This document shows positions 18,876-53,558 of a stretch of DNA of 63,266 nt, piece after piece (the stretch's first letter is position 1; each line of letters begins with the position of its first letter). The notes below the pieces were generated by a model. The model was not told the origin of the DNA and made no database searches. It saw nothing but the letters and a program-made list of their open reading frames with translations. The translations under genes and the position numbers were made by a program. Source of the DNA: Lentisphaerae bacterium GWF2_38_69 (GTDB taxonomy: Bacteria; Verrucomicrobiota; Lentisphaeria; Victivallales; GWF2-38-69); NCBI GenBank assembly GCA_001803205.1, contig MHBE01000007.1, positions 1 through 63,266 of the forward strand, written 5' to 3'.

Positions 18876-19670
18876 ATGAATCAATCATCTGGAATAATTG
18901 TTTTTAAAAATGTAGTCTGGGCTCTTTTGAATCGCGAATTCAAAATGAGGTTTGAAAAAGGCTATCTGTCATATTTATTTGCCTGTGGAGAAGTTTTTAT
19001 TCATGTTTTAATATGGTGGACAATATTTTCTTTCATGGAAAGAAGACCTTTCCTTGATATGGAATTGCCTATATTCATTTTAAGCGGAGCTGTGCCATGG
19101 CTCTTTTTTAGTAAATCAGTTTTAACTAATCTAACTGTTTTTGAAGGGACTAAAGAGTTTCTTGCGTACAAACAGGTAACTATTTTTGCTGCATGTGTAT
19201 CAAGAATTCTTGTGGCAGTAGTTTTAACCTTCTCAGGTTTTATAATCGGACTTTTAGTCTTTTCTTATCTCGGTTATACTTATTTTATATATAATCCGTT
19301 AATCATGTTTCTTGCTTTTTTTATGATGCTGTTTCTATCATTAGGAGTTTCATTGATTGTGTCAATTCCAGGTTATTTTTTTCCTGATTTTACTAAAATT
19401 TTTCCCAATGTAATTAGAGTTTTATATTTTACATCTGGCGTCTTTTGGGATATATCAAGTTTTCCCCCTGATATTAAACCATGGCTAACATGGAATCCTT
19501 TACTTCAAATAATTTCGTTGTTCAGATATTCGTTTCTGCAGGCACCTTTGCCTGGCTATATAAATTTTTATTATTTATGGATAATCATTATTGTGACATT
19601 GTTTTTGGGCGTTGGAATTTATTTTTGTATGAGAAAAGAACTAATCTCAAATGCACGACCTAGAGCCTGA
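18876..19670 (+). CDS. kpsM: Capsule polysaccharide ABC transporter permease (KpsM-like)
   Basis: A 264-residue ABC-2 type permease with about six membrane helices. The N-terminal cytoplasmic helix (LNREFKMRFEKGYLSYLF) and the C-terminal PDIKPWLTWNPLLQIISLFR block match KpsM/Wzm-type exporters. With the following ATPase it should move lipid-linked polysaccharide across the inner membrane. It is first in the capsule operon; the ATPase gene starts 15 bases later. Confidence 0.9.
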   Translation: MNQSSGIIVFKNVVWALLNREFKMRFEKGYLSYLFACGEVFIHVLIWWTIFSFMERRPFLDMELPIFILSGAVPWLFFSKSVLTNLTVFEGTKEFLAYKQVTIFAACVSRILVAVVLTFSGFIIGLLVFSYLGYTYFIYNPLIMFLAFFMMLFLSLGVSLIVSIPGYFFPDFTKIFPNVIRVLYFTSGVFWDISSFPPDIKPWLTWNPLLQIISLFRYSFLQAPLPGYINFYYLWIIIIVTLFLGVGIYFCMRKELISNARPRA

Positions 19671-19685: not shown

Positions 19686-20366
19686 ATGATTAAATTGGAT
19701 AAAGTTACTAAATTATACAAGTATAAAGGATTTAAGCATTATGTTTTCAAGGATTTGGATTTGGTTTTACCAACGAAGCGAAATATAGGTTTATTGGGAC
19801 CCAACGGAGCAGGTAAATCAACTCTTCTCAGACTGATTTCTGGAGGAGAAACTCCAAATTCAGGAAGTATAATAACAGATGAAAACATGTCATTTCCGAT
19901 AGGGATGGGGCAAGCATTGTTAGCGGTTTTGTCTGCAAGAGAAAATGTAAAGTTTGTTTGTAGAATATATGGGAAGAAAGACAAAGAGATGGAATATATT
20001 GTCAACTATGTGAAAGATTTTGCAGAAATTGGTGATTATTTCGACCAACCTTTGAAAACTTATAGCTCAGGGATGAGAAGCCGTATTTCTTTTGGTTTAT
20101 CCATGGCGTTTGATTTTGAACGCTATCTTGTAGATGAAACACTGAGTGTAGGAGACCAAACTTTTAAAAATAAAGCTGCTAGTGTTTTCAAAGAGAAAAG
20201 GGCGAAATCATCAACTATTCTTGCTTCACATTCTATGTCTATTTTAAAACAGAACTGTGAAATGGGTTTATTTGTCAATCAAGGGAAAGTGATTTTATTT
20301 GAAAAAATTGATGATGCAATAGATGCGTATATGAAAGAAGTTGTTAATCAACCATTGAGGAAATAG
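19686..20366 (+). CDS. kpsT: Capsule polysaccharide ABC transporter ATPase (KpsT-like)
   Basis: A 226-residue ABC ATPase. Walker A is GPNGAGKST (residues 38-46), the signature is YSSGMRSRISFGLS and Walker B is RYLVDETLSVGD. The short length and lack of a C-terminal carbohydrate-binding domain fit KpsT-type exporters, which do not select chain ends, rather than Wzt with its extra domain. It pairs with the KpsM-like permease upstream and the KpsE/KpsD pair downstream. Confidence 0.93.
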   Translation: MIKLDKVTKLYKYKGFKHYVFKDLDLVLPTKRNIGLLGPNGAGKSTLLRLISGGETPNSGSIITDENMSFPIGMGQALLAVLSARENVKFVCRIYGKKDKEMEYIVNYVKDFAEIGDYFDQPLKTYSSGMRSRISFGLSMAFDFERYLVDETLSVGDQTFKNKAASVFKEKRAKSSTILASHSMSILKQNCEMGLFVNQGKVILFEKIDDAIDAYMKEVVNQPLRK

Positions 20367-20370: not shown

Positions 20371-21549
20371 GTGAATAAAGACACAATTATTAATTCAGTA
20401 AAAATGAACTTGGAAAAATATAAAATAGTCGAAAAGTTCAAACCAGTGCGTCCAAGAAAAAATCTCTTTACTTTTATTGTTTATATTCCATTTGTAATAA
20501 TAGCTGTTTATTATCTTTTTATAGTTTCTCCAAGGTACGAATCTAGAGCTCTGGTCACAATTCTTCAGCCGGGAAAGCCTCAGGCAATGTTTAATATAGA
20601 GTCAATGATACTTGGTTCATCTGTTACTTCAAATTTGCTTAATCCATATTTGCTGATTGAGTATATCAGGTCTTATAAAATGCTGGATAAGTTAAATAAA
20701 GATATAGATATTTTGAAGAAATATAGCACTAGAGGGGATTTTATTTCAAGATTATCTACTATACCGAATCAAGAGAAGTTTCTCGATTATTATCTATCAA
20801 TGAGCACTATTTCGTTCAATCCAGAAGCCAGTTCTATGTCAATTGCAGCCCAGGCATTTACACCTGAAGATGCACAAGAGATTGTCAACTCAATTGTTAA
20901 GATAGCACAAGATGGGGTGAATAATCTCAATAAAGAGGTAATACATAAGGAAATAAAATTCCTGGAAGAGCAATTAGACACACAAAGAAAAAATCTAAAG
21001 AATTCAATGTATAAGGTAATTGAGTTTCAGGATCAGAAAGGAATTATGGATCCTAAATCTGGAGTTGAATCTGAAGTAGCTATTATCTATTCGTTAAGAT
21101 CTAAATTAGTAGAGGCTGAAAATAATTTGCGTTATATGGAGTACAAAATGAATCCAAATGCGCCCGAAATAATTGAGCAGAAGAAAATTATTAACTCCAT
21201 CAAAGATCAGCTTAAATCTCAATACTCTGAATTGCTTGGTACTTCAAATGTAAATAATAAAGAATCTGAGGAGAAACTAAACGATCTTACAGCTGAATTT
21301 GAATGGTACAGAACTTCACAGGAAATCGAGCTTGGCGCCTATAAACTCGCTTTACAAAATTATGAAGCTGAAAAAGTGCAACTTGCAAAAGATCAGATAC
21401 AACTTGTTGAAATAGTTTCGCCAGTAGTACCTGACTATGCAAAATATCCAAGAGTTTTATATATTCTTGTCACTTCGCTGATTATTTTGCTAATGATATA
21501 CGGAATTGTAAGGATGATAATAACTATAATTAAGGAGCATAAATATTAA
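20371..21549 (+). CDS. kpsE: Capsule export inner-membrane adaptor (KpsE/RkpR-like)
   Basis: A 392-residue polysaccharide co-polymerase-type protein. A membrane helix lies near residues 28-50, a long periplasmic coiled-coil region near 180-330 and a second helix near 365-388. The periplasmic FNPEASSMSIAAQAFTPEDA segment and PDYAKYPRVLYILVTSL before the last helix are typical of KpsE/BexC/CtrB. It should bridge the KpsMT transporter and the outer-membrane exporter. It starts with GTG at 20371 with GAGG ten bases upstream, and its end is one base from the next start. Confidence 0.9.
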   Translation: MNKDTIINSVKMNLEKYKIVEKFKPVRPRKNLFTFIVYIPFVIIAVYYLFIVSPRYESRALVTILQPGKPQAMFNIESMILGSSVTSNLLNPYLLIEYIRSYKMLDKLNKDIDILKKYSTRGDFISRLSTIPNQEKFLDYYLSMSTISFNPEASSMSIAAQAFTPEDAQEIVNSIVKIAQDGVNNLNKEVIHKEIKFLEEQLDTQRKNLKNSMYKVIEFQDQKGIMDPKSGVESEVAIIYSLRSKLVEAENNLRYMEYKMNPNAPEIIEQKKIINSIKDQLKSQYSELLGTSNVNNKESEEKLNDLTAEFEWYRTSQEIELGAYKLALQNYEAEKVQLAKDQIQLVEIVSPVVPDYAKYPRVLYILVTSLIILLMIYGIVRMIITIIKEHKY

Positions 21550-21550: not shown

Positions 21551-23365
21551 ATGAACTCTAAAGCCTTAAAAATTTCTTTTTCTTTTATTTCTTATTTTTT
21601 GAGTTTAGGTGTCATTTTTGCAGTTAATGCTATGAACGATGCTCTTATAGATCAGAATACAAGTCTTTTTCCGAATCAACAAAATAAAACTCAAACTGAG
21701 GAGGTTACCACTGCTCAGGCATTTAATGATACTACTTCTGAAGCTCCGACAAATATGAATAATGTATCTAAGGAAGATGTTTTTGGAATAGGGGATCAGT
21801 TTGGTTCAAAAATTACTCCTGAGCTAAGGAAAAAGATGCTAGAAGGCAACAGAAATTCTTCAGGAATGTTTGTGTTCGGGCAGAATCTTTTTATGGCTCC
21901 CATTAACCTTCAGATACCCCAGCAGAATCCTGAATATGTTATAAATATCGGAGATAAGATTTCAATAAATATATGGGGTGCAATGGAGTTTACCCAGCAC
22001 CTTACAGTTGACAGTCAGGGAAATATTTTTATACCCAAAATTGGTCCCATACGAGTAGCTGATTTGCAGAATAAAGAGTTAAACAGCGTAATTTCTGCAG
22101 CAGTAAAATCCGTTTATAAAGATAATATATTTGTCTATGCCAACCTTCTTACTGCACAGCCTGTTAAAGTATATGTCTCAGGTTATGTTATCAGGCCAGG
22201 ACTCTATGATGGTTTATCTTCAAACTCAATACTTTATTTTCTGACACAGGCAGGAGGAATTATCTTAAACCAGGGTAGTTTTAGAACAGTTAAAATACTT
22301 AGAAATAATAAAGTTGTGAGAAATATTGACCTTTATGATTTTCTTCTGAAAGGAAGTATTCCTTATATTCAGTTTCAGCAGCATGACACAATCCTTGTAG
22401 AGCCTGCTCTGGATACTGTTGAAGTAACGGGGCAAGTATTGCGCCCGGCAAGCTATGAACCGACTTCTGAAGGTTTTCCACTCAGGGAAATGCTAAAGGT
22501 GTCGGGAGCCAAGCCTGAAGCAACATATGTGCTTGTAGAAAACTACAGAGGAGTACAGCCTACACAGGAGTATATCCCTCTTACAGAAGTTAACGAACAC
22601 CTGGTATATGGAGGGGAAAAGGTTACTCTTGTTTCAGATCAGAATATGATGAAGGTCAGAGTATTAATAACAGGTTCGATATACGGCCCTCGTCAGATGG
22701 TGGTTTCCAATGGTACAACTTTATATGATGTAATGATGAATATCAATATGATGCCGGAATCGAACCCCTCCAGCGCCCAGCTTTACAGGAAGAGCCTTTC
22801 TCTTCAGCAGAAGGCTACGATAGAGGCTGGACTGGACTTACTCGAAAGGGAAGTTTACACTAAAGGTCCTTTGACTCCCGATGGAGCTTCTATCCAACAG
22901 ACCTTCGCGAAGACAATCTCTGAATTTGTAAAAAAAGCCAGAAATGCCCAGCCTAAAGGCCAGGTCGTAATTACATCTTCTGAGCAATGGAAAGAAATAA
23001 AAATGGAAGATCAGGATATGGTTAATATCCCTACTATTACTTCTCTTATAAGAATTGACGGTGAAGTTCTTTATCCTTTAGCAGTGACAACCAGGGCTGA
23101 CTATACAATAAGGGATTACATTAATGAAGCAGGAGGGATAACCCGGCTTGGTGATTCATCAAATATTGTAGTTGTAGCGCAGAATGGATCTATAAAGAAA
23201 TGTGACTTAAGCTGGAGCTCATGGTCTACTCCTCCAAAAATTATTGGCGGAGATCAGATAATGGTATTGCCTGTAACTACTACTCAGGCCTTGACTGTCG
23301 CATCTGCCATTTCTCAGATGATTTATCAGGTTGCAATTGCTACAAGAGTAGTTATAACTCCATAA
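21551..23365 (+). CDS. kpsD: Polysaccharide export outer-membrane protein (KpsD-like)
   Basis: A 604-residue secreted protein with an N-terminal signal (about residues 1-26). The polysaccharide export domain begins at YVINIGDKISINIWG, followed by SLBB repeats such as VKVYVSGYVIRPGLYDG, DTVEVTGQVLRPASYEP and IRIDGEVLYPLAVTTRADYTI. Its size and repeat number fit KpsD rather than the shorter Wza. It would form or line the outer-membrane exit for the capsule. The N-terminal QTEEVTTAQAFNDTTSEAP stretch is a low-complexity linker. It closes the kpsMTED block and precedes the PKS. Confidence 0.9.
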   Translation: MNSKALKISFSFISYFLSLGVIFAVNAMNDALIDQNTSLFPNQQNKTQTEEVTTAQAFNDTTSEAPTNMNNVSKEDVFGIGDQFGSKITPELRKKMLEGNRNSSGMFVFGQNLFMAPINLQIPQQNPEYVINIGDKISINIWGAMEFTQHLTVDSQGNIFIPKIGPIRVADLQNKELNSVISAAVKSVYKDNIFVYANLLTAQPVKVYVSGYVIRPGLYDGLSSNSILYFLTQAGGIILNQGSFRTVKILRNNKVVRNIDLYDFLLKGSIPYIQFQQHDTILVEPALDTVEVTGQVLRPASYEPTSEGFPLREMLKVSGAKPEATYVLVENYRGVQPTQEYIPLTEVNEHLVYGGEKVTLVSDQNMMKVRVLITGSIYGPRQMVVSNGTTLYDVMMNINMMPESNPSSAQLYRKSLSLQQKATIEAGLDLLEREVYTKGPLTPDGASIQQTFAKTISEFVKKARNAQPKGQVVITSSEQWKEIKMEDQDMVNIPTITSLIRIDGEVLYPLAVTTRADYTIRDYINEAGGITRLGDSSNIVVVAQNGSIKKCDLSWSSWSTPPKIIGGDQIMVLPVTTTQALTVASAISQMIYQVAIATRVVITP

Positions 23366-23403: not shown

Positions 23404-23466
23404 GGATAAGATAGATAAGATAGATAAAATAGATAAAATGGATAAAATGGATAAAATGGATAAAAA
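23404..23466 (+). repeat. 9-bp tandem repeat spanning the PKS start codon
   Basis: Seven near-identical 9-base units of the form RGATAARAT run head to tail. The first four units give ATA-GAT-AAR and the last three ATG-GAT-AAA in the reading frame of the PKS, so three in-frame start codons (23438, 23447, 23456) are offered and the protein begins MDKMDKMDKK. Because 9 is a multiple of 3, gain or loss of units keeps the frame but changes the number of starts and the distance from any upstream ribosome site. No clear SD is seen right before the array; GAGACGG at 23399-23405 borders it. Confidence 0.9.
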
Positions 23467-26400
23467 GATAGCTATTTTGGGATATTCCTTTCGCCTGCCT
23501 GGAAATTTAGGGACTGATGAAGAGTTATGGAAAGCCCTTATTGATAAAAAAGACTTAATTACTGAGATACCGGAAGAGCGTTTTAACAAATCAAAATTCT
23601 TCCATGAAAGTAAGAATAAAAGTGGGAAATCTTATGTATTTAAAGCAGGAGTCATATCAGAGGATATAAATGCTTTCGATGCAGCATTTTTTAAAATGCC
23701 AAACAGAGAAGTCACGCAAGTGGATCCTCAGCAAAAACTGCTTCTAATGACAACCTGGGAAGCCTTTGAAAAGAGTGCCATTAATCCGGCAACTGTATCA
23801 GGGAGCAATTGCGGTGTGTATGTGGGAATAGGAAGCGCTGATGCTCTTACTTTAGGCGCCGCTGATATGAGTTCTCAGAATATGTACTCATCACTAGGAG
23901 GAAGCAACTCTATTGCGGCAAACAGAATTTCATATTTCTTTAACCTTAAAGGCCCAAGTTTGGCAATAGATACTGCCTGTTCATCAGCACTGACTGCCCT
24001 TCACCAGGCATGTTTGAGCATAAGATCAGGAGAAACAGAGATGGCGGTAGTAGGAGCAGTAAATGTGCTGTTTTCTCCTCTTACTTTTATAGCAAACAGT
24101 CAAGCTCAAATGTTATCTCAGGAAGGCAGGTGTAATAGCTTTAGCAACAATGCCGAAGGATATGTAAGATCAGAGGGATGCATCTCTATAATATTGAAAC
24201 CCCTCGAAAAAGCTATTAAAGACGGTGATTTAATAAAGGGAGTAATATTAAATACTACGGCAAACAGCGACGGAGCTACCAATGGCCTTCCCGTTCCAAG
24301 CAGCAGTGCTCAGTGTGCGCTTTTAAAAAAGGCTTACTCAGAAATTGCTCTGGACTGTAATGATATTTCTTATATTGAAGCTCATGGCACAGGTACTAAA
24401 ATCGGTGATCCTACCGAAACAGAATCGATTTCAAAAGCTCTAACTTCGAAAAGAAAAAAATTTCTTCCAATAGGTTCTATAAAATCAAACATAGGACATC
24501 TCGAAGCAGCAGCTGGTTTCGCTGGTTTAGTCAAAGCACTGTTATGTTTAAAACATAGACAGATTCCAGCTACAATAAATTGTTCGATACTAAATCCTGA
24601 TATTAAGTTTGAAGAGCTTAAACTGGAAGTAGTAAGAGAACTGCTGGATTTGAGCAGAGAAGAAAAAGATATAATAATCGGAGTTAATGCGTTTGGTTTT
24701 GGAGGCAGTAATGCCCATGCAATAATTTCCGAATACAGAGTTGAGACTTCTTCCCATGATTCAGGAAAACCCAACACTACTCCCGATAACATTCCACTGC
24801 TCATCACCGCAAGCAGTGAAACTTCCCTTAGAAACATGGCATCAAGTTATGCGCAATTTCTAAAAAGTACTACTAATGATTTTTATAACATTGCATATAA
24901 CGCTTTCTATACCAGAGCAAGGCATCCTTTATACTGCATAGCATACGGGGATTCAAGAGAAGATATTGCACAAACTCTGGAAACTTACTCACAGAAAGGC
25001 GTAGAGAATAAACTGATTTTCACTGGAAAAAAATTAAATCCAGGAAATAAAATTGCTTTTGTATTTGCAGGTAACGGCTGCCAGTGGCCTGGCATGGGAA
25101 AGATGCTCGTTGAAAGCTCTCCGGTAATAGCAGAATATATGAGGCAGGTAGATGAAATTTTTAAAGAGCTAACAGACTTTTCTCTGATTGAGACGATAAA
25201 GAAAAATAACGACAATAAGGTTTATTCTGATACTCAGCTTGCACAGTCAGCTCTATTTATGATACAGGCTTCGATTGTAATGTACCTGAAATCATACGGT
25301 ATTTCATGTAATGCAGCCATTGGACATAGCGTCGGAGAAATCCCGGCAGCATGGATCGCTGGGGTTCTTACTTTAGAAGAAGCAGTCAAATTGATTTATT
25401 TCAGAAGTAAGGCACAGGCAAAAACCAGAGGACTCGGAAAAATGGCGGTTCTTGGAAAAGGGCATCAGGAAACTCAGGCTATAATTAAAAGTCTGAAATT
25501 GGGAAAATTTCTTGAAGTGTCAGGAATAAATAGCCCTGAACTGACAACTATTTCCGGCCTCGAGTCCTCTTTGAGAAAAATTCAGCATTATGCTGAAAGT
25601 AAAGAAATATACTTTAAATTCCTAGATATAGACTATCCTTTTCATAGCAGAATAATGGATCGTGTAAAAGACGAATTCATAAAAGATATTGAAAATCTTT
25701 TACTACCTAGAAAACAACAGGGAAATGTAGACTTTATTTCAACGGTATCAGGAGTTAAATTTCCTACAGACTCATTGAATGCTGAATATTGGTGGGATAA
25801 CCTGAGACGACCAGTTAATTTTCAATCTGGAATTGAATGTCTTGTTTCGGATGGTTTTGATACTTTTATTGAAATAAGTACTCATCCAATTCTCCTACGC
25901 TCCATTGAACAATCATTGGGAAGCAAGAAAAATATAGTGAACCTTATCCCTTCCCTTAAACGGGATTCAAATGAGTTACATGATATACACGACCTGCTCT
26001 TCAAATTAGTTGTTTCTGGCGTCCCTTTTAATGAGAATAAATGGTTTCCTTTACAAGCCCCAAAAACAATCCTTCCTTGTTATAGCTGGGACAAGAAAGT
26101 TTACAAACCTGTAACAACTATAGAATGTATGAGTCCAGTAGCACATAGAATTGAACACCCTTTATTGGGATGGAGAATCACAGGAAGTGAGAATATCTGG
26201 GAGAATCATATTGACGCTACAAATTGCGGAGATATTGCAGACCATATAGTAGGGGAAGCCATCGTTTATCCCGCTGCATGTTTCATCGAGGCAGCTATAG
26301 GGATTTATAGCATTACTAATAGTGCTCAAATAGGAATATTTGATAAGCTTATGATACTTGCTCCTATAACTTTGGATAAAGATGTGACTCTGCTGCTTCA

Positions 26401-29400
26401 ACTGCAAATGGATGATAACGGCTATTTCACTTTGCGGAGCAGACCGAGACTAACAAATCTAGACTGGACAACTCATGCAAAGGGCAGATTACTTAAAAAT
26501 TCTAATATTCAAAAACTTCATGACAGATACTGCAAAACAAATGAAATCAGGCAACATGTTGGGGTCAGAATTACATCTGAAAAACATTATGAACTTGCTA
26601 GTGCAGCAGGCTTGATTTACAAAAACAAATTTCAGACTATTGAAGAAGTATTGATAGATGGAGATACAGTTTTTATTGAATTTAAGGATAATAACGGAAG
26701 TTTCCCTGATTGTAATTATCAGCCGCCATATATAGACGGTGGCTTTCAAAGCATATTTTCCCTTATATGGAAAAAAGAAGAAATTGAAGGTAGTGTTTTA
26801 AGTAAATCTTACCTTCCAATATCTGTTGACAGTATAGTGTTTCTTAACAAACAAAACTCAATTAAAAGAGCGGTCAACAAATTTAACCACATCTCTCCAT
26901 TCTCAGCAAATTCAGATATATACTATTATGATAATGAAAACAATCTTGTTCTCATCTTATATGGGGCAAGATGTATCGCAGCTCAATCTTTATTGATATC
27001 AAAGAAAATTCCTGCTCTTTGGGAATCCATACCATATCTTTTGCATAATTACAATACTCCTTTATTAACCAATGCTCTGAACAATAAGGTCATAAGCGCT
27101 TTCCAAAAGTTCAGAGTTGTCTATGATCCTAAATATAATCAGCTTAACTTAATATTTGAACAGCTGATCATTTCGTATCTCGTTGAAACGATGAAAAGAC
27201 TTTCTCCTTCTGACATAGTTATTGAGAAAGGTTTATTTGGAAGAAAAATCAGGATTGCTTCAGTGAAACTGATCTGTGAATTGCTGAAAGAGGAAGGGTA
27301 CCTGAATGCAAAATCTGATGCTCTCTATTCATGGATCAAAGGCAAGGAAATCTTACCATCTGAAGAAATTTATAATTTACTCCTGGAAAGATATTCTGAA
27401 GCTTTCCCTGAAATACTCTATTTTGGAAGGATTGGGCTAAATCTTGAGAAGATTCTTCTAGGAAGTATTGCCCCTGATGAACTTGTAACTTTAGATGGAG
27501 GCATGTACACGAAATTTATTGAATCGTCAATTCTCGCTAGGCCAGTTTCCGAATCTCTGAAAAGTGCCTTAACTAATCTTTTGGAAAAATTGAAAACTCA
27601 TGAGAAAATTAATATTCTTGAGATAGGTGAAGGTTTATTCGCCAATACTGTAATGTCTATTGCGACAGATGAGAATTTAGAGAATCTTAACTATCAGCTT
27701 CTCACTTACAATAAAGACACTTACAAAGGAATCCACGATAGAAAATTCAATGTAACTGCTAGATTGATAGATGAAACAGAAAGTTTTAAGGACTTACAGC
27801 CTTCTTTAAAGTTTAATTTGATAATTTGTACAGACCTTCAGTTAATTAACAGGAAAAAGAAAAGCTTCAAAAGAATTTTAGATTTGATAACTGAGAATGG
27901 AATTTTGTTAGTACATGACGGTCAGCCATGTTTGTCACAATGGTTTATGAATGGCCTTAAGCCTTATAATTATAAATCATTTTTACAAAAACTTGAATCT
28001 TCTTGTTATCCTTATGGAGAGACCTATTGGAGAACTTATTTTGAAGGTTTTAATCTAGATCACCTCAATACTTATAAAGATGCCAATCAGAATGAAACGA
28101 TTGGAAGCTTTACTTCCTTGTTTTTAAATAAAATAAATAAGAAAACGGTTGTTTCCAAAATTGAATATCTGTCTCAAAAATCCGTTTTGCTTATCTATTC
28201 AGATGGTTCAGCGGATCATGAAAACATTAATAGATTTCTCTCTTCTGAGTGTCAGATTTTTGAAGCTTATAATTACAAAACACCTCTTAAAAAGAAAACA
28301 GATTTCAGCAAATACGATGAAATATTTATTCTGCCGGAAAAGGATACTGACCTTGATGATACCTCTCTTGATTTGTTAATAATGGAAATTATCAGAAGAA
28401 TAGCTCGTAATAATGATTTTAGCAGGAAGCCTTGTTTGAATCTTATTACAAGCGGTGGGGCTTTATGCAATGGAAGAAAAAATCTTGTATTTGAACGCAA
28501 TCCAAAACATGCGTCACTTTGGGCTCTCATGCGTGTAGTTTATTCAGAGTACAGCTCATATATTAATTTCAGGCTAATTGACTTGCAGAATGAACTTTTG
28601 CAAAACAGAATTGCAGATGTAATGGAATATAAAAACAATGAGCTTGTTTTGACTGATAAAGCTGTATATGCAATCAGAGTTATACCTTATAAAGAAAAAC
28701 CCGAGCCATATAAACTTTCAAAAGATAAAATAATAGCTCTTAATTTGGAGAAAAAAGGTTCTTTTGATTACATAAAATGGAAAGAAAAAAACAAAGATGT
28801 TCTAAAAGATAACCAGGTGGCCATTAAACCTGTTTCTGTCGGTTTGAACTTCAGAGATATCATGTACACCCTGGGCCTTATGCCTGAAGAAGCTGTAGAA
28901 GCAGGAGCTATTGGCGGAGGATGCTTAGGCCTAGAAGGCTCTGGAATAGTGATTGAAACAGGCAAAAAAGTAAAAGGTTTTAAACCAGGGGAGAGAGTCA
29001 TAGCCGGAGCTCCGCCTTCATTTTTTACTAGCTATATAACAGTTAACCAGGAAAATTTGTTAAAACTCCCGGATAACTGGACTTATGAAGAAGGCGCTAC
29101 CTTCTTTATAACTTATATGACAGCTTATTATTCATTGGTTTACCTTGCTCAGCTGAAAAAAGGAGAAAAAATCCTTATACATGCTGCTTCAGGAGGAGTA
29201 GGGCTTGCTGCTATACAAATTGCCAAATATCTGGGCGCTGAAGTTTATGCAACCGCTGGAAATGGAGAAAAAAGGGATTTTCTAGAGTCAATTGGTATTA
29301 AAAATGTTTATGACTCAAGAACACTATATTTTTCAGAACAGATAATGGAAGATACCAACGGCGAAGGAATGGATGTCATCCTTAACTCATTGAGCGGAGA

Positions 29401-30844
29401 TGCTATAGACATAAACTTTAAAGTCTTGAAATATATGGGGAGGTTTGTAGAAATAGGAAAGAGAGACATCTATGAGAATAAAAGACTGGAGATGAAATCA
29501 TTCAGCAAAAGTATATCTTTTTTCTATTTCGATTTGGAATTGTTTCTTAAATATAAAAAAGATATTGCACAGCATATTTTTACAGAACTCAATGATCTTA
29601 TTAATAAAGGAATTTTTAAACCACTTCCCTATGTGTCATTTCCTGTTACTCAGATCAAGGAAGCTTTTAAGTTTTTGAAGGATGGTAAATCTATAGGAAA
29701 AGTCGTTGTTAATATAAACCAAAACGATTTATCGCCCGATCAATCTTTGAAGGAACAAAAGAAATTTAGAGGTTCATATTTACTGACAGGAGGAACCGGT
29801 GGTTTTGGTTTGGAAATAGCAAAATATTTGGTTGAAAAAGGAGTTAAGAGCCTCATTCTCGTTAGCCGTTCAGGGAAATTGGATGCCGAATCTTCAGACT
29901 ATTTCAAAAACAAAGAAATAAAACTGAAAGTTTACTCGGGAAATGTTTCTTCATATGTACAGATGGAGGAAATTTTTAACAAAATAAGAAAAGAGAGAAT
30001 TGAACTTAAAGGAATCCTCCATGCGGCTGCGATCTATAAGGATGATCTTATAGAAAATATGTCCTCTGAGAATTATTATGATGTGCTAATGCCAAAAATA
30101 AAAGGGGCATCTCATCTGGATTTGTTGTCCAGGGATTATGATTTGGATCATTTTATCCTGATTTCATCAGTAACTGTTCTTCTTGGAAATATTGGTCAAG
30201 CTAATTATGTAGCAGGGAATGGATTTATGGAATCTCTTATTCTTTTGAGAAGGAAAGCAGGATTAACTGGTAACTACCTTGCTCTTGGAGGAATTGGAGA
30301 TGTAGGATATATACAAAGAAATCAACAACTCAAAAAATTGCTCTCCGATAAACTCGGAAATACTATGACTAAAGAACAGGCGATTATGGCGCTTGACAGT
30401 CTCATATCAAGTAATCATCCGGGATATGTTGCAATGGATTGGGATATTCAAAGAATGTCAGATACCTTGCCTTCGGTAAAAACAGAAAGGTTTGATCCTG
30501 TAAGGAAATTACACTCTCAAACAAAAATAAGCTCAGATGTAGGAAACTTCAAAGAATATATAAATAGCCTGACTCCCGCGGAAGCTAAGAATGAACTGCA
30601 AAATATTGTAGCGGAAGAAGCGGCAAGCTTGCTTGGTATATCCCTTGAAGATCTTAAAAAGGAAAAGTCTCTTAAAGATTACGGTCTTGACTCCTTGATG
30701 GGATTTGATCTTGTAATGTCTCTGGAGAAAAGAACAGGCATTAAAATGTCGAATATGGCCTTACCTCAACAGCCTAATATTATTGCTGTTACAGAAATGT
30801 TGTTACTGAAGCTTAATCCTACAGAGGATAAAGGCGATAATTAA
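23438..30844 (+). CDS. rkpA: Type I polyketide/fatty-acid synthase, one reducing module (RkpA-like)
   Basis: A 2468-residue synthase with the order KS-AT-DH-MT(degenerate?)-ER-KR-ACP. The KS triad is C181 (DTACSSA), H316 (EAHGTGT) and H354 (NIGHLEAAAG). The AT serine is S631 (GHSVGE) and DYPFHS at 732-737 resembles malonyl-type AT. DH shows H936 and D1100 (DGGFQ). The MT region near 1330-1560 has EIGEGLF where active enzymes have a glycine-richer motif. ER has HAASGGVGLAA at 1915, KR has LTGGTGGFG at 2116 with S2244, Y2257 and N2261, and the ACP serine is S2419. There is no thioesterase; the next gene probably releases the chain. Size and neighbours match RkpA of the Sinorhizobium K-antigen locus, so a saturated acyl chain for capsule biosynthesis is likely. 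Confidence 0.92.
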   Translation: MDKMDKMDKKIAILGYSFRLPGNLGTDEELWKALIDKKDLITEIPEERFNKSKFFHESKNKSGKSYVFKAGVISEDINAFDAAFFKMPNREVTQVDPQQKLLLMTTWEAFEKSAINPATVSGSNCGVYVGIGSADALTLGAADMSSQNMYSSLGGSNSIAANRISYFFNLKGPSLAIDTACSSALTALHQACLSIRSGETEMAVVGAVNVLFSPLTFIANSQAQMLSQEGRCNSFSNNAEGYVRSEGCISIILKPLEKAIKDGDLIKGVILNTTANSDGATNGLPVPSSSAQCALLKKAYSEIALDCNDISYIEAHGTGTKIGDPTETESISKALTSKRKKFLPIGSIKSNIGHLEAAAGFAGLVKALLCLKHRQIPATINCSILNPDIKFEELKLEVVRELLDLSREEKDIIIGVNAFGFGGSNAHAIISEYRVETSSHDSGKPNTTPDNIPLLITASSETSLRNMASSYAQFLKSTTNDFYNIAYNAFYTRARHPLYCIAYGDSREDIAQTLETYSQKGVENKLIFTGKKLNPGNKIAFVFAGNGCQWPGMGKMLVESSPVIAEYMRQVDEIFKELTDFSLIETIKKNNDNKVYSDTQLAQSALFMIQASIVMYLKSYGISCNAAIGHSVGEIPAAWIAGVLTLEEAVKLIYFRSKAQAKTRGLGKMAVLGKGHQETQAIIKSLKLGKFLEVSGINSPELTTISGLESSLRKIQHYAESKEIYFKFLDIDYPFHSRIMDRVKDEFIKDIENLLLPRKQQGNVDFISTVSGVKFPTDSLNAEYWWDNLRRPVNFQSGIECLVSDGFDTFIEISTHPILLRSIEQSLGSKKNIVNLIPSLKRDSNELHDIHDLLFKLVVSGVPFNENKWFPLQAPKTILPCYSWDKKVYKPVTTIECMSPVAHRIEHPLLGWRITGSENIWENHIDATNCGDIADHIVGEAIVYPAACFIEAAIGIYSITNSAQIGIFDKLMILAPITLDKDVTLLLQLQMDDNGYFTLRSRPRLTNLDWTTHAKGRLLKNSNIQKLHDRYCKTNEIRQHVGVRITSEKHYELASAAGLIYKNKFQTIEEVLIDGDTVFIEFKDNNGSFPDCNYQPPYIDGGFQSIFSLIWKKEEIEGSVLSKSYLPISVDSIVFLNKQNSIKRAVNKFNHISPFSANSDIYYYDNENNLVLILYGARCIAAQSLLISKKIPALWESIPYLLHNYNTPLLTNALNNKVISAFQKFRVVYDPKYNQLNLIFEQLIISYLVETMKRLSPSDIVIEKGLFGRKIRIASVKLICELLKEEGYLNAKSDALYSWIKGKEILPSEEIYNLLLERYSEAFPEILYFGRIGLNLEKILLGSIAPDELVTLDGGMYTKFIESSILARPVSESLKSALTNLLEKLKTHEKINILEIGEGLFANTVMSIATDENLENLNYQLLTYNKDTYKGIHDRKFNVTARLIDETESFKDLQPSLKFNLIICTDLQLINRKKKSFKRILDLITENGILLVHDGQPCLSQWFMNGLKPYNYKSFLQKLESSCYPYGETYWRTYFEGFNLDHLNTYKDANQNETIGSFTSLFLNKINKKTVVSKIEYLSQKSVLLIYSDGSADHENINRFLSSECQIFEAYNYKTPLKKKTDFSKYDEIFILPEKDTDLDDTSLDLLIMEIIRRIARNNDFSRKPCLNLITSGGALCNGRKNLVFERNPKHASLWALMRVVYSEYSSYINFRLIDLQNELLQNRIADVMEYKNNELVLTDKAVYAIRVIPYKEKPEPYKLSKDKIIALNLEKKGSFDYIKWKEKNKDVLKDNQVAIKPVSVGLNFRDIMYTLGLMPEEAVEAGAIGGGCLGLEGSGIVIETGKKVKGFKPGERVIAGAPPSFFTSYITVNQENLLKLPDNWTYEEGATFFITYMTAYYSLVYLAQLKKGEKILIHAASGGVGLAAIQIAKYLGAEVYATAGNGEKRDFLESIGIKNVYDSRTLYFSEQIMEDTNGEGMDVILNSLSGDAIDINFKVLKYMGRFVEIGKRDIYENKRLEMKSFSKSISFFYFDLELFLKYKKDIAQHIFTELNDLINKGIFKPLPYVSFPVTQIKEAFKFLKDGKSIGKVVVNINQNDLSPDQSLKEQKKFRGSYLLTGGTGGFGLEIAKYLVEKGVKSLILVSRSGKLDAESSDYFKNKEIKLKVYSGNVSSYVQMEEIFNKIRKERIELKGILHAAAIYKDDLIENMSSENYYDVLMPKIKGASHLDLLSRDYDLDHFILISSVTVLLGNIGQANYVAGNGFMESLILLRRKAGLTGNYLALGGIGDVGYIQRNQQLKKLLSDKLGNTMTKEQAIMALDSLISSNHPGYVAMDWDIQRMSDTLPSVKTERFDPVRKLHSQTKISSDVGNFKEYINSLTPAEAKNELQNIVAEEAASLLGISLEDLKKEKSLKDYGLDSLMGFDLVMSLEKRTGIKMSNMALPQQPNIIAVTEMLLLKLNPTEDKGDN

Positions 30845-30890
30845 AAAATACACAATATCGTCATTATCCGAATAATAGGTATTTATAATT

Positions 30891-32201
30891 ATGAAATATA
30901 AAATTCCAACATCCGGCATACTTAAAAAAATTCTTGAAGAAAGAAAAGGGAAGCAATACAAACTTCCGGAAGAATTACATGCAGATAATAATGCTTACCT
31001 TAATTCTAATACGACATTCAGAGAGTTCGAGAAATATCAAATGATAGAAGAGATGAAAGCTCTTCTTGAGAAATATAAAATAAACTATCCTTTTTTTCGC
31101 TGTTACGACGGTATTGGTGGAGCAAGTATTAAATTCCAGGAAAAAGATTATATCAACTTTACCAGCTACAACTACTTAAATCTTAATGCTCATCCTGAAA
31201 CTCTAAAATTTGTCTCTGAAACAATTAAAGAAATCGGCACTTCATGTTCTGCCAGCAGAATGACATCTGGAGAGAGAAAGATTCATCAGGATCTTGAAAA
31301 GCTCATAGCAAAAGATTTATATGGAACTGAGGATTCCCTTCTTTTTGTAAGCGGTCACGCAACAAATGTTTCAACTATAAGTTGTCTCTTTGAATCAGAA
31401 GATGTTATTTTCTATGATGCTTTATCTCATAACAGTATTACAGAAGGGATAAAGCTTTCCAAAGCAAAATATTATGCTTTCAAGCACAATGACATGGATC
31501 ACCTTGTAGTACTTATGGAACAGCATAGAGATAAAGGGAATAATGCTCTGATAGTCACAGAAGGGCTTTTTGGAATGGATGGAGATATTCCTGATCTGCC
31601 AAAAATGATTGAAATTAAAAAGAAATATGATGCTTTTTTAATGATTGATGAAGCTCATTCTCTTGGTATTCTAGGAGATAAAGGGAAGGGGCTTCATGAA
31701 CACTACTCAATAGATTCCAGAGAAGTTGATATCTGGATGGGGACTTTAAGTAAAAGTTTGTGCAGCTGCGGAGGGTATATCGCCGGAAGCTCTGAACTTA
31801 TTATGATTTTGCGCTTAAACGCTACAGGATTCTTCTACAGCGCAGCAATGACTCCTGCTAATACTGCGGCTGCTCTTTCTTCGCTAAGGCTTATGCTTAG
31901 CGATAACGAAAGAGTAGCTTCCCTGAGAAATAATGGAGAATATTTTCTAAATAAACTCAAAAAGGCTAAATTAAACACAGGAACCAGTATCGGTAGAGGC
32001 GTTATCCCCGTTTATATTGGAGGTGAAAAAAAAGCTTATGAAATATCGAATCTTCTTTTTGATAAATATAAAATCAATGTTCTGCCTGTGACATATCCAG
32101 CAGTAGAAGAAGGCATAGCAAGATTAAGGTTTTTTATAAACAGTGATCATACCGAAGAGCAGTTTGATTGTACAGTTTCAGCTCTGAAGAAACATTTATA
32201 A
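30891..32201 (+). CDS. rkpG: Alpha-oxoamine synthase (RkpG/serine-palmitoyltransferase-like)
   Basis: A 436-residue fold-type I PLP enzyme of the AONS/KBL/SPT family, which condenses an acyl thioester with an amino acid and releases carbon dioxide. The PLP lysine is K288 in GTLSKSLCSCGGYIAG, and IDEAHSLGILGDKGKG carries the aspartate that pairs with the cofactor. FTSYNYLNLNAHPE resembles the substrate-entry segment of SPT. It has about 60 extra N-terminal residues compared with BioF. Following directly after an ACP-ended PKS without thioesterase, it probably offloads the chain as a 2-amino-3-oxo lipid. The rhizobial RkpG holds the same position. The amino acid used is not readable. Confidence 0.88.
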   Translation: MKYKIPTSGILKKILEERKGKQYKLPEELHADNNAYLNSNTTFREFEKYQMIEEMKALLEKYKINYPFFRCYDGIGGASIKFQEKDYINFTSYNYLNLNAHPETLKFVSETIKEIGTSCSASRMTSGERKIHQDLEKLIAKDLYGTEDSLLFVSGHATNVSTISCLFESEDVIFYDALSHNSITEGIKLSKAKYYAFKHNDMDHLVVLMEQHRDKGNNALIVTEGLFGMDGDIPDLPKMIEIKKKYDAFLMIDEAHSLGILGDKGKGLHEHYSIDSREVDIWMGTLSKSLCSCGGYIAGSSELIMILRLNATGFFYSAAMTPANTAAALSSLRLMLSDNERVASLRNNGEYFLNKLKKAKLNTGTSIGRGVIPVYIGGEKKAYEISNLLFDKYKINVLPVTYPAVEEGIARLRFFINSDHTEEQFDCTVSALKKHL

Positions 32202-32225
32202 AGGAATTTCCTTTCGAGGTACATA

Positions 32226-33464
32226 TTGAAATCAATATTATTTTTACAAGGTCCTCCTTCATCCTTTTTCAGCATGATGTCTAAAGCTCTTGCAAAGAGT
32301 GGCCATAATGTCTGGAAACTAAATCTTTGTCCAGGAGATGTTTTTTTTTGGAAGGCAGGAAACTCGATCAACTATAAGGGAAGTCTCGAAAAGTGGGAAT
32401 CCTTTATCTCTGAATTTCTTTTCCAAAACAAAATTGATCTGATAATTTTATATGGAGAACAGAGGACTTATCATAAAATCGCCATCTCGTGCGCATATAA
32501 ATTGAAAATACCTATTATTGTGAGTGAGTTTGGATATATCAGACCGGACTGGCTTATATTTGAATTTAACGGTATTTCGGGGTCATCTCTATTTCCAAGA
32601 AACCCTGAAGAAATACATCTACTTGCTCATAACTCGCCCGATTATTCACTTAACCCTGTTTACAAGATTAATGGCCTTTATTGGTCTGTATGCGAATTAA
32701 TCTATCCTCTTTTAAATTGGATTTTTTCTTTTTCTTTTCCAAATTTTCGAATGAAACTGAATCCTAATCTAAGGCTGTACATAGGAACAAATCTGCATAT
32801 AATAAAAACATTTTTTGCGCGCGGTAAAGTTAAAAAAATAATTGACAGGCTTTTGCTTGAGAAGGGGGAATATTTTGTTTTTCCTCTTCAGGTAGAGGAT
32901 GATTTTCAAATTAGCGCGTATTCAAGTTATAGCGGGATGAGTCAGGCAATCAGAGAGGTCGTTGAGTCCTTTGCAAAATATGCGTATAAGGACGCAAAAC
33001 TTATTGTAAAACTGCATCCTCTCGAATCTATTGCTTATAATTGGGAGAAATTATGTAAAAATCTATGTGTCCAATATAATCTTAAGGACAGATTGTTTTG
33101 CATTGACGGAGGTTCTCTGGAGAAACTTCTTAAAGGAGCTGCAGGAGTTGTTACTATTAATAGTACAGTAGGAATAAAAGCATTAATTGAATGTTTGCCT
33201 GTAAAGGTGCTGGGGCAGGCCGTATATGATATATCTGGATTGACTTTTAAGGGAACACTTGAAGATTTCTGGGTAGATAACTTTAAACCGGACAAGAAAT
33301 TAAGAGATAATTTTATAAGAGCTCTTGCTTCATGTGTTCATCTTAGAGGTTCCTATTACTCTAAAGAAGGACTTGCTGCAGCGGTAAAAGAAGCTGTCTA
33401 TAGGATTGAAAATAATCTGATAAATAAACCTTTGGATAGAAATAGCCTTAATCTTTATGAGTAA
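32226..33464 (+). CDS. Capsule biosynthesis protein, KpsS/RkpJ-like (Kdo transferase type)
   Basis: A 412-residue GT-B type protein. The opening FLQGPPSSFFSMMSKAL...GHNVWKLNLCPGD and the later EFGYIRPDW, VFPLQVEDDFQI and KLHPLES segments match the capsule polysaccharide biosynthesis family (KpsS/LipB/RkpJ), whose studied members add the first beta-Kdo to a lipid acceptor. The start is TTG at 32226 with GAGGT a few bases upstream. It overlaps the next gene by eight bases. A KpsC partner, normally required to lengthen the Kdo linker, is not recognised in the window. The acceptor here may be the PKS-derived lipid. Confidence 0.8.
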   Translation: MKSILFLQGPPSSFFSMMSKALAKSGHNVWKLNLCPGDVFFWKAGNSINYKGSLEKWESFISEFLFQNKIDLIILYGEQRTYHKIAISCAYKLKIPIIVSEFGYIRPDWLIFEFNGISGSSLFPRNPEEIHLLAHNSPDYSLNPVYKINGLYWSVCELIYPLLNWIFSFSFPNFRMKLNPNLRLYIGTNLHIIKTFFARGKVKKIIDRLLLEKGEYFVFPLQVEDDFQISAYSSYSGMSQAIREVVESFAKYAYKDAKLIVKLHPLESIAYNWEKLCKNLCVQYNLKDRLFCIDGGSLEKLLKGAAGVVTINSTVGIKALIECLPVKVLGQAVYDISGLTFKGTLEDFWVDNFKPDKKLRDNFIRALASCVHLRGSYYSKEGLAAAVKEAVYRIENNLINKPLDRNSLNLYE

Positions 33465-34212
33465 TATAAGAAATATAGTATTAACAGGGGCAAGTTCAGG
33501 TATAGGAAGAGCCTTAGCTGAAATATATTCTGCTCCTGGTGTAATTCTGGGATTATTGGGAAGAGTGGACTCTGAGCTTGAGAAAACAGCAGTTAACTGC
33601 CGAACTAAAGGGGCAGAAGCAATAAAAGCTTCGATTGATATAACTGATCATTTAAAAATGAAAGAATATCTAGAGTGTTTTGATGTCAGATATCCTATAG
33701 ATATGCTTATTGCCAATGCAGGAATAGATTTCGTTTTAAAGGCTGACTATCAGCTGGAGTCGATGGACACAGCTCGTAAGTTAATGGAAGTAAATTTTTT
33801 TGGAGTTTTAAATACTATAAATCCTGTCATTGAATCGATGAAAAAAAGAAGGAAAGGGCACATAGTTATTTTAAGCTCAGTCGCTGCGTTCAGAGGTCTT
33901 CCTGTATGTCCTGTGTATTGCGCTTCCAAATCAGCTGTTAAAGTATATGGGGAAGCTTTGAGATGTATATTGTCACCATACAATATCAAGGTTTCTATCG
34001 TATGCCCTGGTTTTGTAGAAACTAGGATGAGCGACGAATTCCCTTATGAAAAACCATTTATGATTTCTGCAGATAAGGCAGCCCTCATCATAAAAAAAGG
34101 TCTTATCTCTGAAAAAGCTTATATAACTTTTTCCTTATTCTGGAAGGTTTGGAGCTATTTAGTCAGATATTTACCTTATAGGCTGTCCGATAAAATAGTG
34201 AACCTAAAATAG
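33457..34212 (+). CDS. rkpH: Short-chain dehydrogenase/reductase (RkpH-like)
   Basis: A 251-residue classical SDR. The nucleotide motif is TGASSGIG (residues 10-17), NAG is present at 87-89, and the catalytic set is S141, Y154 and K158 (PVYCASK). Family relatives include 3-ketosphinganine reductases, and the KPFMISADKAALIIKKGL C-terminal part resembles that subgroup. Next to the oxoamine synthase it would reduce the 3-keto group to an amino alcohol. It is translationally linked to the KpsS-like gene by an eight-base overlap, and ends only four bases from the convergent glycosyltransferase gene. Confidence 0.85.
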   Translation: MSNIRNIVLTGASSGIGRALAEIYSAPGVILGLLGRVDSELEKTAVNCRTKGAEAIKASIDITDHLKMKEYLECFDVRYPIDMLIANAGIDFVLKADYQLESMDTARKLMEVNFFGVLNTINPVIESMKKRRKGHIVILSSVAAFRGLPVCPVYCASKSAVKVYGEALRCILSPYNIKVSIVCPGFVETRMSDEFPYEKPFMISADKAALIIKKGLISEKAYITFSLFWKVWSYLVRYLPYRLSDKIVNLK

Positions 34213-35227: not shown

Positions 35228-35239
35228 CGCGTTATCCTA

Positions 35240-43251: not shown

Positions 43252-44535
43252 TCAGAGTCTCCAAAGAGCATAGCCTCTGGAAGTGACTTCAGACCTTGGC
43301 AAAATTCCTTTTACATCCAGAATAACTCCGCCCGGTTGAACTTTAGATAGTAGGCGATCAAGATTTAAATTCTTAAATTCTTTATGAGCTACGGCAAGAA
43401 CCATCAGGGGGGCAGGAGATAGTTTATCAAATTCTTTGAATTTGATTCCATATTCATGTTCTGTGTCCGTAGCATCAGCTACAGGGTCACACACGGTAAC
43501 ATCCACATTGTAGTCTATAAGTTCATTTATAAGGTCAATAACTCTTGTATTGCGAACATCAGGGCAGTCTTCTTTGAAAGTAAAACCAAGAACATTTGCA
43601 TGGACTTTATTGATTTCTATCGATCTTTTGAGGAGTTGCTTTATGCCCTGTTTGGCAATATATCTGCCCATATTGTCATTAATTCTTCTGCCGGAGTGGA
43701 TAACCTGAGGAGCATAACCAAATTTTTCAGCTTTATATGTAAGATAATATGGGTCAACTCCAATGCAGTGTCCGCCAACGAGTCCAGGCCGGAATGGAAG
43801 AAAGTTCCACTTTGTTCCTGCAGCTTCCAGAACATCCAGAGTGTCTATTCCCATTCTGGCAAATACAATGGATAACTCATTCATAAAAGCTATATTCAGG
43901 TCGCGTTGTGAATTCTCTATAACTTTAGCCGCTTCGGCTACTTTTATTGATGCAGCCTTATAAACTCCGGATTTTACTACTGAAGAATAAACTTCGGAAA
44001 CAATATCCAAAGTCCTCTGATCTTGGCCTGATACAATTTTTAAGATGTTCGTGAAAGAGCGTTCTTTGTCTCCGGGATTAATCCTCTCAGGCGAATAACC
44101 TACTGTAAAGTCTTTTCCACATCTCAGCGATGACATTCTCTCTAGAATCGGAACACATATCTCTTCTGTTACTCCCGGATAAACAGTTGATTCATAAACG
44201 ACAATGTCACCTTTTTTAAGAGCTTTTCCAACTGTTTCTGATGATTTTTCTACAGGAGTCAAGTCCGGGACATGCGCTTCGTCCACCGGAGTAGGAACTG
44301 CTACAATATGAAAGTCAGCTTTCTTAAGCTCCTCGACATCGCAGGTAAAAAGGATATTTGTAGATTCTAGTTCTTCTTTTGAAACTTCATATGTCTTGTC
44401 ATATCCCTGAATAAGTTCTAATATTCTTTGGGGATTGATATCAAAACCTATTACTTGTTCTTGTTTTCCAAAGGCGACAGCTACAGGCAGTCCAACATAC
44501 CCGAGCCCGACTACTGATATTTTTCGATTATGCAT
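43252..44535 (-). CDS. tviB: Nucleotide-sugar dehydrogenase (TviB/WbpO-like UDP-GlcNAc dehydrogenase)
   Basis: A 427-residue NAD-dependent UDP-sugar dehydrogenase. The N-terminal Rossmann motif is VVGLGYVGLPVAVAFG, the catalytic cysteine is C257 in GGHCIGVDPYYLTYKA, and GYSPERINPGDKERSFTNILKIVSG is characteristic of the TviB/WbpO/WbpA group, which oxidises C6 of UDP-HexNAc to give a uronic acid. UDP-glucose dehydrogenase is a less likely alternative. The product would be an acidic sugar for the polymer, consistent with a heparinase-like gene nearby. Its start lies 35 bases after the end of the upstream ACP-TPR gene. Confidence 0.85.
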   Translation of the reverse strand: MHNRKISVVGLGYVGLPVAVAFGKQEQVIGFDINPQRILELIQGYDKTYEVSKEELESTNILFTCDVEELKKADFHIVAVPTPVDEAHVPDLTPVEKSSETVGKALKKGDIVVYESTVYPGVTEEICVPILERMSSLRCGKDFTVGYSPERINPGDKERSFTNILKIVSGQDQRTLDIVSEVYSSVVKSGVYKAASIKVAEAAKVIENSQRDLNIAFMNELSIVFARMGIDTLDVLEAAGTKWNFLPFRPGLVGGHCIGVDPYYLTYKAEKFGYAPQVIHSGRRINDNMGRYIAKQGIKQLLKRSIEINKVHANVLGFTFKEDCPDVRNTRVIDLINELIDYNVDVTVCDPVADATDTEHEYGIKFKEFDKLSPAPLMVLAVAHKEFKNLNLDRLLSKVQPGGVILDVKGILPRSEVTSRGYALWRL

Positions 44536-51807: not shown

Positions 51808-51849
51808 TAAAATTAACCCTTATTATTGTTGCAGATTATTACTGATTTC

Positions 51850-53481: not shown

Positions 53482-53558
53482 TCTTTCCAGGATTGTTTAA
53501 ACTCAATCGTCTGTGATTCCCTTAATGATTCCCTTAATGATTCCCTTAATGATTTCAT
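53439..53558 (-). pseudogene. AlbA_2 (Schlafen-like) gene start fragment
   Basis: A 39-codon frame beginning at ATG 53558 reads three LRES repeats, then ESQTIEFKQSWKDEYLR, which matches the first strand and helix of AlbA_2/Schlafen-type ATP-dependent regulators. The match stops at about 53470, where the sequence passes into the ORF6N remnant in another frame, so this looks like a recombination scar. Its ATG overlaps the pseG-pseH stop codon as ATGA, probably by chance. Confidence 0.55.
53515..53550 (-). repeat. 12-bp tandem repeat (three units) encoding LRES
   Basis: GATTCCCTTAAT occurs three times head to tail on the + strand, immediately after the pseG-pseH stop. In the minus-strand frame of the AlbA_2 fragment each unit gives four codons (Leu-Arg-Glu-Ser). 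Confidence 0.85.

Follow-up and report, generated by a model that had tools for sequence, protein, structure and literature searches.

A capsule export operon with a predicted sphingoid lipid pathway in a Lentisphaerae bacterium

Described relatives of the locus

The rkp-1 region of Sinorhizobium meliloti (rkpA, rkpG, rkpH, rkpI and rkpJ) is needed for production and export of the K-antigen (PMC4881576; a requirement for the K-antigen capsule is also given in PMC3557214), and the idea that it makes a lipid carrier or anchor is already part of the rhizobial literature (PMC3557214, PMC4881576). Here we describe a relative of this region in a 63,266-nucleotide stretch of DNA from Lentisphaerae bacterium GWF2_38_69 (contig MHBE01000007.1), which at its full length we call the window. 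In it, a polyketide synthase (PKS), an alpha-oxoamine synthase (AOS), a KpsS/RkpJ-type protein and a short-chain dehydrogenase/reductase (SDR) follow a capsule exporter, and we think it probable that this operon both exports the capsule and makes a sphingoid lipid dedicated to anchoring it, as a reduced variant of the rkp-1/wcbO-T/sga pathway. All four proteins belong to the same families as their rkp-1 counterparts, and the AOS is 42% identical to that of S. meliloti; a preliminary description of this DNA, which had likened these gene types to the rhizobial region, was correct in this. In contrast to rkp-1, the window has no RkpI (an LtaS/GacH-like protein), carries the Kps exporter in the same operon, and comes from a host that, judging by its RpoB, is not a pseudomonadote.

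The capsule I genes wcbO-wcbT of Burkholderia (BPSL2787-2792) encode, in order, an AOS, an LpxC-like protein, a PKS, a transmembrane sulfatase of the LtaS type, an SDR and KpsS (PMC4275268), and the same families are found together in two of the loci collected below (L007 and L014). The window cluster differs in having neither an LpxC-like nor an LtaS-type gene, and in its order, PKS-AOS-KpsS-SDR. A biochemically defined relative comes from Pseudomonas fluorescens MYb115, in which SgaA (PKS) and SgaB (AOS) make C24-C28 sphinganines that are lost from sgaA and sgaB mutants (PMC12134224, 2025). Purified SgaB is a serine palmitoyltransferase (SPT) that uses L-serine almost exclusively; SgaC, an SDR resembling 3-ketosphinganine reductase (KDSR), is the proposed reductase, and lipids of sphinganine +154 Da were assigned as phosphoglycerol sphingolipids (PMC12134224). 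The same paper reports 6,101 SgaAB-like clusters. The window shares with MYb115 an iterative PKS, an AOS (of SPT activity in SgaB) and a KDSR-like SDR. In contrast, SgaABC was published as a free-lipid pathway, and related Pseudomonas clusters have LtaS and KpsC, whereas the window has neither. The MYb115 locus tags for the PKS (RS19805), AOS (RS19800) and SDR (RS19775) are spaced as in those Pseudomonas clusters that have PhyH, KpsC, GNAT and LtaS genes between AOS and SDR, and from this spacing we infer that the MYb115 locus is itself a capsule cluster.

The terminal lipid of Escherichia coli-type capsules is the lyso form of phosphatidylglycerol (PG). In that system, KpsS and KpsC build the linker of 3-deoxy-D-manno-oct-2-ulosonic acid (Kdo) on PG (PMC11041684). 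The window resembles E. coli group 2 systems in its KpsMTED exporter type and in having a KpsS-family Kdo transferase, whereas the E. coli cluster has no lipid-building genes and the window genome no recognisable KpsC. In fumonisin-type fungal pathways, a PKS chain is released by an AOS and its keto group is then reduced. These share only their chemical logic with the window; they yield fungal secondary metabolites and have no capsule link. The fungal reductase Fum13 is named in PMC12134224.

Eight genes from exporter to reductase

ORF calls and profile searches gave eight genes, KpsM-KpsT-KpsE-KpsD-PKS-AOS-KpsS/RkpJ-SDR, all on the forward strand between positions 18876 and 34212 (Table 1). 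The gaps along this run are 15, 4, 1, 72, 46, 24 and -8 bp, with 72 bp the largest, and because they are so small the eight genes are likely to form a single operon. The exporter proteins KpsM, KpsT, KpsE and KpsD and the KpsS of the group 2 capsule system are all present, and the arrangement first described, of PKS, AOS, KpsS/RkpJ-like protein and SDR behind a capsule exporter on one strand, was recovered with open reading frames at exactly the same coordinates. Scored with family profiles built excluding the window sequences (leave-out profiles), the window AOS reached 495, KpsS 366 and SDR 268 bits; the leave-out KpsD profile, built on one reference only, returned no match.

Pfam and NCBIfam place KS, AT, DH, ER, KR and ACP domains in the PKS, with the ACP last and ending 14 residues short of the stop, and neither found a thioesterase domain, which bears out the account of a reducing one-module PKS lacking one. 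Every catalytic residue of KS, AT, DH, KR and ACP is present, and the same residues are invariant across 69 homologous PKSs. In the homologues inspected, the stretch resembling a methyltransferase is degenerate. Because the active sites are kept and no thioesterase accompanies them, the acyl chain would need an external releasing enzyme. A 9-nucleotide tandem repeat, GATAAAATA, present in 7.4 copies at 23405-23470, overlaps the PKS start and holds several in-frame ATG codons (MDKMDKMDKK); a change in its copy number would alter the start region and keep the frame.

We placed the window AOS in a tree of 65 AOS proteins, a quick tree with Shimodaira-Hasegawa-like approximate likelihood ratio test support only and some long reference branches, in which PfSgaB is represented by Pseudomonas homologues (L008, L037 and L041). 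The window AOS and 38 other PKS-linked AOS form a single RkpG/WcbT clade (support 100) that includes the three Pseudomonas proteins, and its nearest neighbor there is that of Francisella noatunensis (support 98). The sister of this clade is the SPT clade (support 90), with BioF and Kbl elsewhere; the phylogeny proposed in the preliminary description as a check on the oxoamine synthase therefore places it in an RkpG/SgaB-type clade and not with BioF or Kbl. The best PDB match is Sphingobacterium SPT (8guh, 2.9e-65). Residues H180, D253, H256 and K288, which serve pyridoxal phosphate, are invariant in our AOS alignment (A1), and two marks of the clade, N181 (H-N instead of H-A) and C293, are found in 89 of its 90 members and in none of five reference AOS. 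The window AOS reached no NCBIfam SPT cut-off (302 of 640, 254 of 500 and 189 of 670 bits), and it also missed those of BioF (TIGR00858, 333 of 426 bits) and Kbl (TIGR01822, 243 of 493 bits). A misplaced BioF or Kbl is ruled out by the tree position together with these missed cut-offs. We predict that the window AOS releases the ACP-bound chain as a 2-amino-3-oxo lipid.

AOS domains of the PKS-linked clade also occur as fusions (L012, L013, L179 and L180). In Planktothrix (L013) the domain closes a PKS, in Streptomyces (L012) it is part of a large protein, and in a genome of the window's own phylum (L179) it follows an AMP-ligase and an ACP. The source genome encodes a second AOS (L002, contig C5), which lies near Bacteroidota-type SPT and is 57.5% identical to that of Parabacteroides; given this separate SPT-like protein, the genome may have two sphingoid routes.

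An AlphaFold model of the window KpsS (predicted local distance difference test score, 88.5) has the KpsC and WbbB Kdo transferases as its structural matches. The SDR retains the catalytic N-S-Y-K residues and shares 37% identity with its counterpart in a Pseudomonas cluster (L041) and 36% with the Francisella one (L154). With the leave-out SDR profile, under which it scores 268 bits, the next-best SDR in the window scores 43, placing it in the RkpH/WcbP-type family, as had been thought. The 3-ketosphinganine-reductase character also attributed to it fared less well: the NCBIfam KDSR model gives 95 bits against a cut-off of 400, and because general models support this character weakly, the assignment rests on the cluster-specific family.

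Neighborhoods in other bacteria and the proposed anchor

We sampled neighborhoods by searching named genomes with AOS alignment A1 and retaining the best 80 loci; the counts that follow describe this sample. Most loci are from Pseudomonadota, and others from Thermodesulfobacteriota, Nitrospirota, Planctomycetota, Cyanobacteriota and Acidobacteriota. A PKS adjoins the AOS in 70 of the 80, most exceptions being short contigs or fused proteins, and capsule or LtaS-type genes are present in 44 of the 49 loci of at least 18 kb. The PKS-AOS-SDR set is repeatedly linked to KpsS and a Kps exporter, both in the window's lineage and in Pseudomonadota, Thermodesulfobacteriota and Nitrospirota.

A frequent extra component in the relatives is an LtaS-type protein (PF00884), which by position is RkpI in S. 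meliloti (L011) and WcbQ in Burkholderia. The best PDB matches of the LtaS-like profile are phosphoglycerol transferases: GacH (4e-28), lipoteichoic acid primase (1e-18) and LtaS (9e-11). The Thr, Glu, Asp-His and His residues of these proteins are invariant in the relatives, and a simple hydropathy scan, which leaves their topology unsettled, finds 2-5 N-terminal membrane segments. Where an LtaS-type gene is present (44 loci), an SDR gene lies within 300 bp of it in 32; seven of the other 12 are truncated where the locus stops, so that the pair is seen in 32 of the 37 loci that could be assessed. Even in 13 genomes where the LtaS-type gene is apart from PKS-AOS, the SDR is still beside it in 12. 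Because the LtaS/GacH-type transferase adjoins the SDR in this way, we propose sphinganine-1-phosphoglycerol as the KpsS acceptor in most relatives; because the window organism's genome is without such an enzyme, a plain amino alcohol may be the acceptor there.

Plasmid pLA5 of Novosphingobium pentaromativorans keeps SDR-LtaS-KpsS beside a PF04116 hydroxylase, and no PKS or AOS is annotated across the nearly whole plasmid covered; SPT-type enzymes have been reported in this species (PMC6163740). SDR-LtaS-KpsS also stands with no PKS-AOS nearby in Novosphingobium plasmid loci L184, L185 and L188, and in the first two an adjoining sterol-desaturase/fatty-acid-hydroxylase gene could encode a sphinganine hydroxylase. 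A KpsS cluster on an E. coli plasmid has neither SDR nor LtaS. In Pseudomonas paraversuta (L037, 15129-17341), only 288 aa of the LtaS-type gene remain and run into a frame that resembles KpsC. Neither SDR nor KpsS was found in that locus, and this cluster is decayed or rearranged. Besides the window, other clusters lack LtaS, among them L019, L026, L055 and L081. We found no head-group enzyme common to the LtaS-less clusters: beside the module are a polyphosphate kinase in L026, a GNAT protein in L019 and a KpsC relative in L055.

The pathway that we propose from these comparisons would begin with the iterative PKS building a saturated long acyl chain and keeping it on its own ACP, a step that is well supported. 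The AOS would then condense this chain with an amino acid (L-serine being the likeliest), with decarboxylation, and so release it as 3-keto-sphinganine. This step is well supported by homology, and homology and linkage point to the SDR as the enzyme that would reduce the product to sphinganine. In most relatives, an LtaS/GacH-type enzyme, missing from the source genome, would next place phosphoglycerol on C1, giving a single-chain mimic of lyso-PG. KpsS/RkpJ would add the first Kdo to the lipid, in the window possibly straight onto the sphingoid alcohol, and the capsule glycan would be built on it; by homology, KpsM-T-E-D would export the product. Of these, the phosphoglycerol step, the role of the lipid as KpsS acceptor and the covalent anchoring of the capsule by the sphingoid are the parts we infer by comparing gene sets.

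The preliminary description had outlined a similar route, in which the released chain is reduced to an amino alcohol and takes the first capsule sugar in place of lyso-PG. That outline gains from the AOS clade and its SPT sister, from the sphinganines made by the MYb115 analogue and from the capsule linkage in several phyla. Its plain amino alcohol does not suit most relatives, where the LtaS-type enzyme beside the SDR suggests a mimic of lyso-PG and not a substitute for it, and may still apply to the window. There, the acceptor may be the bare amino alcohol, or may carry a head group from an unrecognised enzyme, or the LtaS gene may lie in the missing ~5% of the assembly. We speculate, and hold it to be a rather doubtful extension, that sphinganine-phosphoglycerol is a widespread capsule anchor mimicking lyso-PG and that the window lineage dropped the phosphoglycerol step, with its KpsS glycosylating a phosphate-free sphingoid base as a new kind of anchor.

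Several observations weigh against a sphingoid capsule anchor. No chemistry is known to tie a sphingoid to any capsule. The MYb115 sphingolipids are described as free lipids, capsule is absent from the paper's main text, and sphinganine overproduction left the phosphoglycerol forms unraised (PMC12134224). That L-serine is the substrate of the window AOS is itself a prediction. The source genome, in an assembly that is ~95% complete, yielded no LtaS/GacH-type (RkpI/WcbQ) protein, by either PF00884 or our profile A2, and no recognisable KpsC. Its one further PF05159 match, to a 600-aa protein encoded on a different contig (C14), scores ~22 bits across 91 positions; as the match is both weak and partial, this protein was rejected as KpsC. 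With no LtaS and no clear KpsC, the proposed phosphoglycerol and Kdo steps are incomplete in the source genome. LtaS-type active sites usually lie outside the inner membrane and KpsS works with cytoplasmic CMP-Kdo, so an LtaS product would have to be flipped before KpsS could use it. Finally, the window KpsM carries substitutions (W45->F, R89->S and R94->T) at canyon positions that, in a solved exporter, bind the phosphate of the lipid or Kdo. R89 is also lost in L010, L062, L072 and L083, where LtaS is present, and the canyon changes thus fail to split clusters with LtaS from those without it.

The PKS-AOS-SDR product might instead be a free sphingolipid, either a membrane component or a secreted bioactive, not covalently joined to the capsule, with surface genes simply travelling together. 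MYb115 sphinganines and their phosphoglycerol forms were indeed isolated free, with effects on a host (PMC12134224). We nevertheless regard this as unlikely, because the linkage to KpsS and the Kps exporter recurs across Pseudomonadota, Thermodesulfobacteriota, Nitrospirota and the window's lineage, because the K-antigen depends on rkp-1 for its production and export (PMC4881576), and because Novosphingobium retains SDR-LtaS-KpsS without PKS-AOS.

A slightly less likely alternative is that the LtaS/GacH-like enzyme of the relatives decorates the capsule glycan with glycerol phosphate and that sphinganine is the direct acceptor everywhere, window included. Glycans outside the cytoplasm are the substrates of GacH and other members of the LtaS family, and LtaS-less clusters exist (among them the window, L019, L026, L055 and L081). 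However, LtaS is linked to the SDR and not to glycan genes, across clusters whose sugar genes differ, and MYb115 has the sphinganine +154 Da lipids. Least probable of the three is that the lipid serves as a carrier, a primer or a cofactor of export, the final anchor being an ordinary PG-based one made by KpsS/KpsC. The rhizobial literature does speak of a "lipid carrier or anchor", giving no structure, and in E. coli-type capsule synthesis KpsS directs its Kdo transfer to PG (PMC11041684). Yet lipid genes of this kind are absent from a KpsS-type E. coli capsule cluster, and the pairing of LtaS with the SDR predicts a mimic of lyso-PG, for which there would be no use if PG itself were the acceptor. 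A dedicated sphingoid anchor thus stays our preferred reading, and comparison with many bacteria suggests that PKS-made sphingolipids are a widespread capsule anchor.

Surroundings, host and significance

The source genome contains kdsB (223 bits, over its cut-off), for CMP-Kdo supply. A head-group enzyme was sought in the window, where two proteins at 38223-40500 gave no relevant match; three CDP-alcohol phosphotransferases are encoded elsewhere in the genome. Beyond the operon, the window carries a UDP-sugar dehydrogenase and a set of pseudaminic acid genes (Table 1), which are a possible sugar supply for the capsule. Glucuronic acid and a derivative of pseudaminic acid make up the KR5 antigen of strain Rm41 (PMC4881576), and the presence of both gene types at 43-61 kb makes a similar glycan conceivable for the window capsule, which we offer as a suggestion only.

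Table 1. Positions of the operon and of candidate capsule-sugar genes in the window
Feature	Position	Strand	Evidence and remarks
KpsM-like ABC permease	18876..19670	+	PF01061; NF050053 94 bits (below cut-off of 300); top PDB match KpsM of 8tsh, 2.6e-21
KpsT-like ABC ATPase	19686..20366	+	PF00005; top NCBIfam models are polysaccharide-exporter ATPases
KpsE, PCP-3 inner-membrane export protein	20371..21549	+	GTG start; TIGR01010 BexC_CtrB_KpsE 221 bits
KpsD/Wza-like outer-membrane export protein	21551..23365	+	PF02563 and SLBB domains
RkpA/WcbR/SgaA-type one-module reducing type I PKS	23438..30844	+	2468 aa; KS-AT-DH-(degenerate MT)-ER-KR-ACP; malonyl-type AT motif
PKS-linked AOS, RkpG/WcbT/SgaB-type	30891..32201	+	PF00155; tree; PDB match
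KpsS/RkpJ-type beta-Kdo transferase	32226..33464	+	TTG start; PF05159 213 bits; NF050054 KpsS 247 bits (below cut-off of 600)
RkpH/WcbP/SgaC-type SDR, predicted 3-ketosphinganine reductase	33457..34212	+	PF00106; family similarity; motifs
UDP-sugar (GlcNAc or Glc) dehydrogenase, candidate capsule precursor enzyme	43252..44535	-	TIGR03026 389 bits; TviB-like 516 bits (cut-off 592)
Pseudaminic acid genes, whole set	50749..61037	-	NCBIfam equivalogs over cut-off for PseI, PseG, PseC and PseB; Pfam
PseI	50749..51807	-	
PseG+GNAT	53555..54985	-	
Cytidylyltransferase-aldo/keto reductase fusion	56628..58289	-	
PseC	58338..59486	-	
PseB	60045..61037	-	

Two proteins of the pseudaminic acid set are fused, PseG with a GNAT domain and the cytidylyltransferase with an aldo/keto reductase. 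Interspersed with the surface-sugar genes are one for a 936-aa protein whose only domain is GT-D-like (47828-50638) and one for an acetate-CoA-ligase-like enzyme (46178-47791). Directly downstream of the operon, on the opposite strand, are two similar, adjoining Glyco_trans_1_2 proteins (34217-36313) and a heparinase II/III-like protein (36346-38109). The left end of the window (110-9628) holds a cyanophycin synthetase-like piece, cyanophycinase, a peptide permease, urease alpha and UreG; between the urease genes is an alanine racemase.

RpoB of the source genome is 83% identical to that of a member of the same family and ~50% to those of Pseudomonadota, Bacteroidota and Planctomycetota. The assembly has no 16S sequence. 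Within the same family and order, 40 relatives were covered, and none has a close AOS homologue. Among 145 sampled genomes of the phylum, five others reach an E-value of 1e-120 for the AOS, in longer open reading frames, and the two checked are multi-domain. Because the host is not a pseudomonadote by this measure, and close AOS homologues are absent from the 40 relatives and few in the phylum, horizontal acquisition of the module is probable.

No structure has been defined for the lipid that rhizobial rkp-1 and the corresponding Burkholderia capsule genes make. The literature searched, from which most subscription journals are absent, gave no report connecting sphinganine with an anchor of Kps-type capsules. 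Our comparison ties the rkp-1/wcb genes to the sphinganine pathway described in 2025 and adds to them a phosphoglycerol transferase that, where present, is nearly always beside the reductase. The resulting prediction is one specific structure, Kdo on sphinganine-1-phosphoglycerol, which can be tested by mass spectrometry. If it is true, many of the 6,101 SgaAB-like clusters (PMC12134224) would be capsule clusters, and many bacteria outside the counted sphingolipid makers would hold their capsules by sphingolipids.

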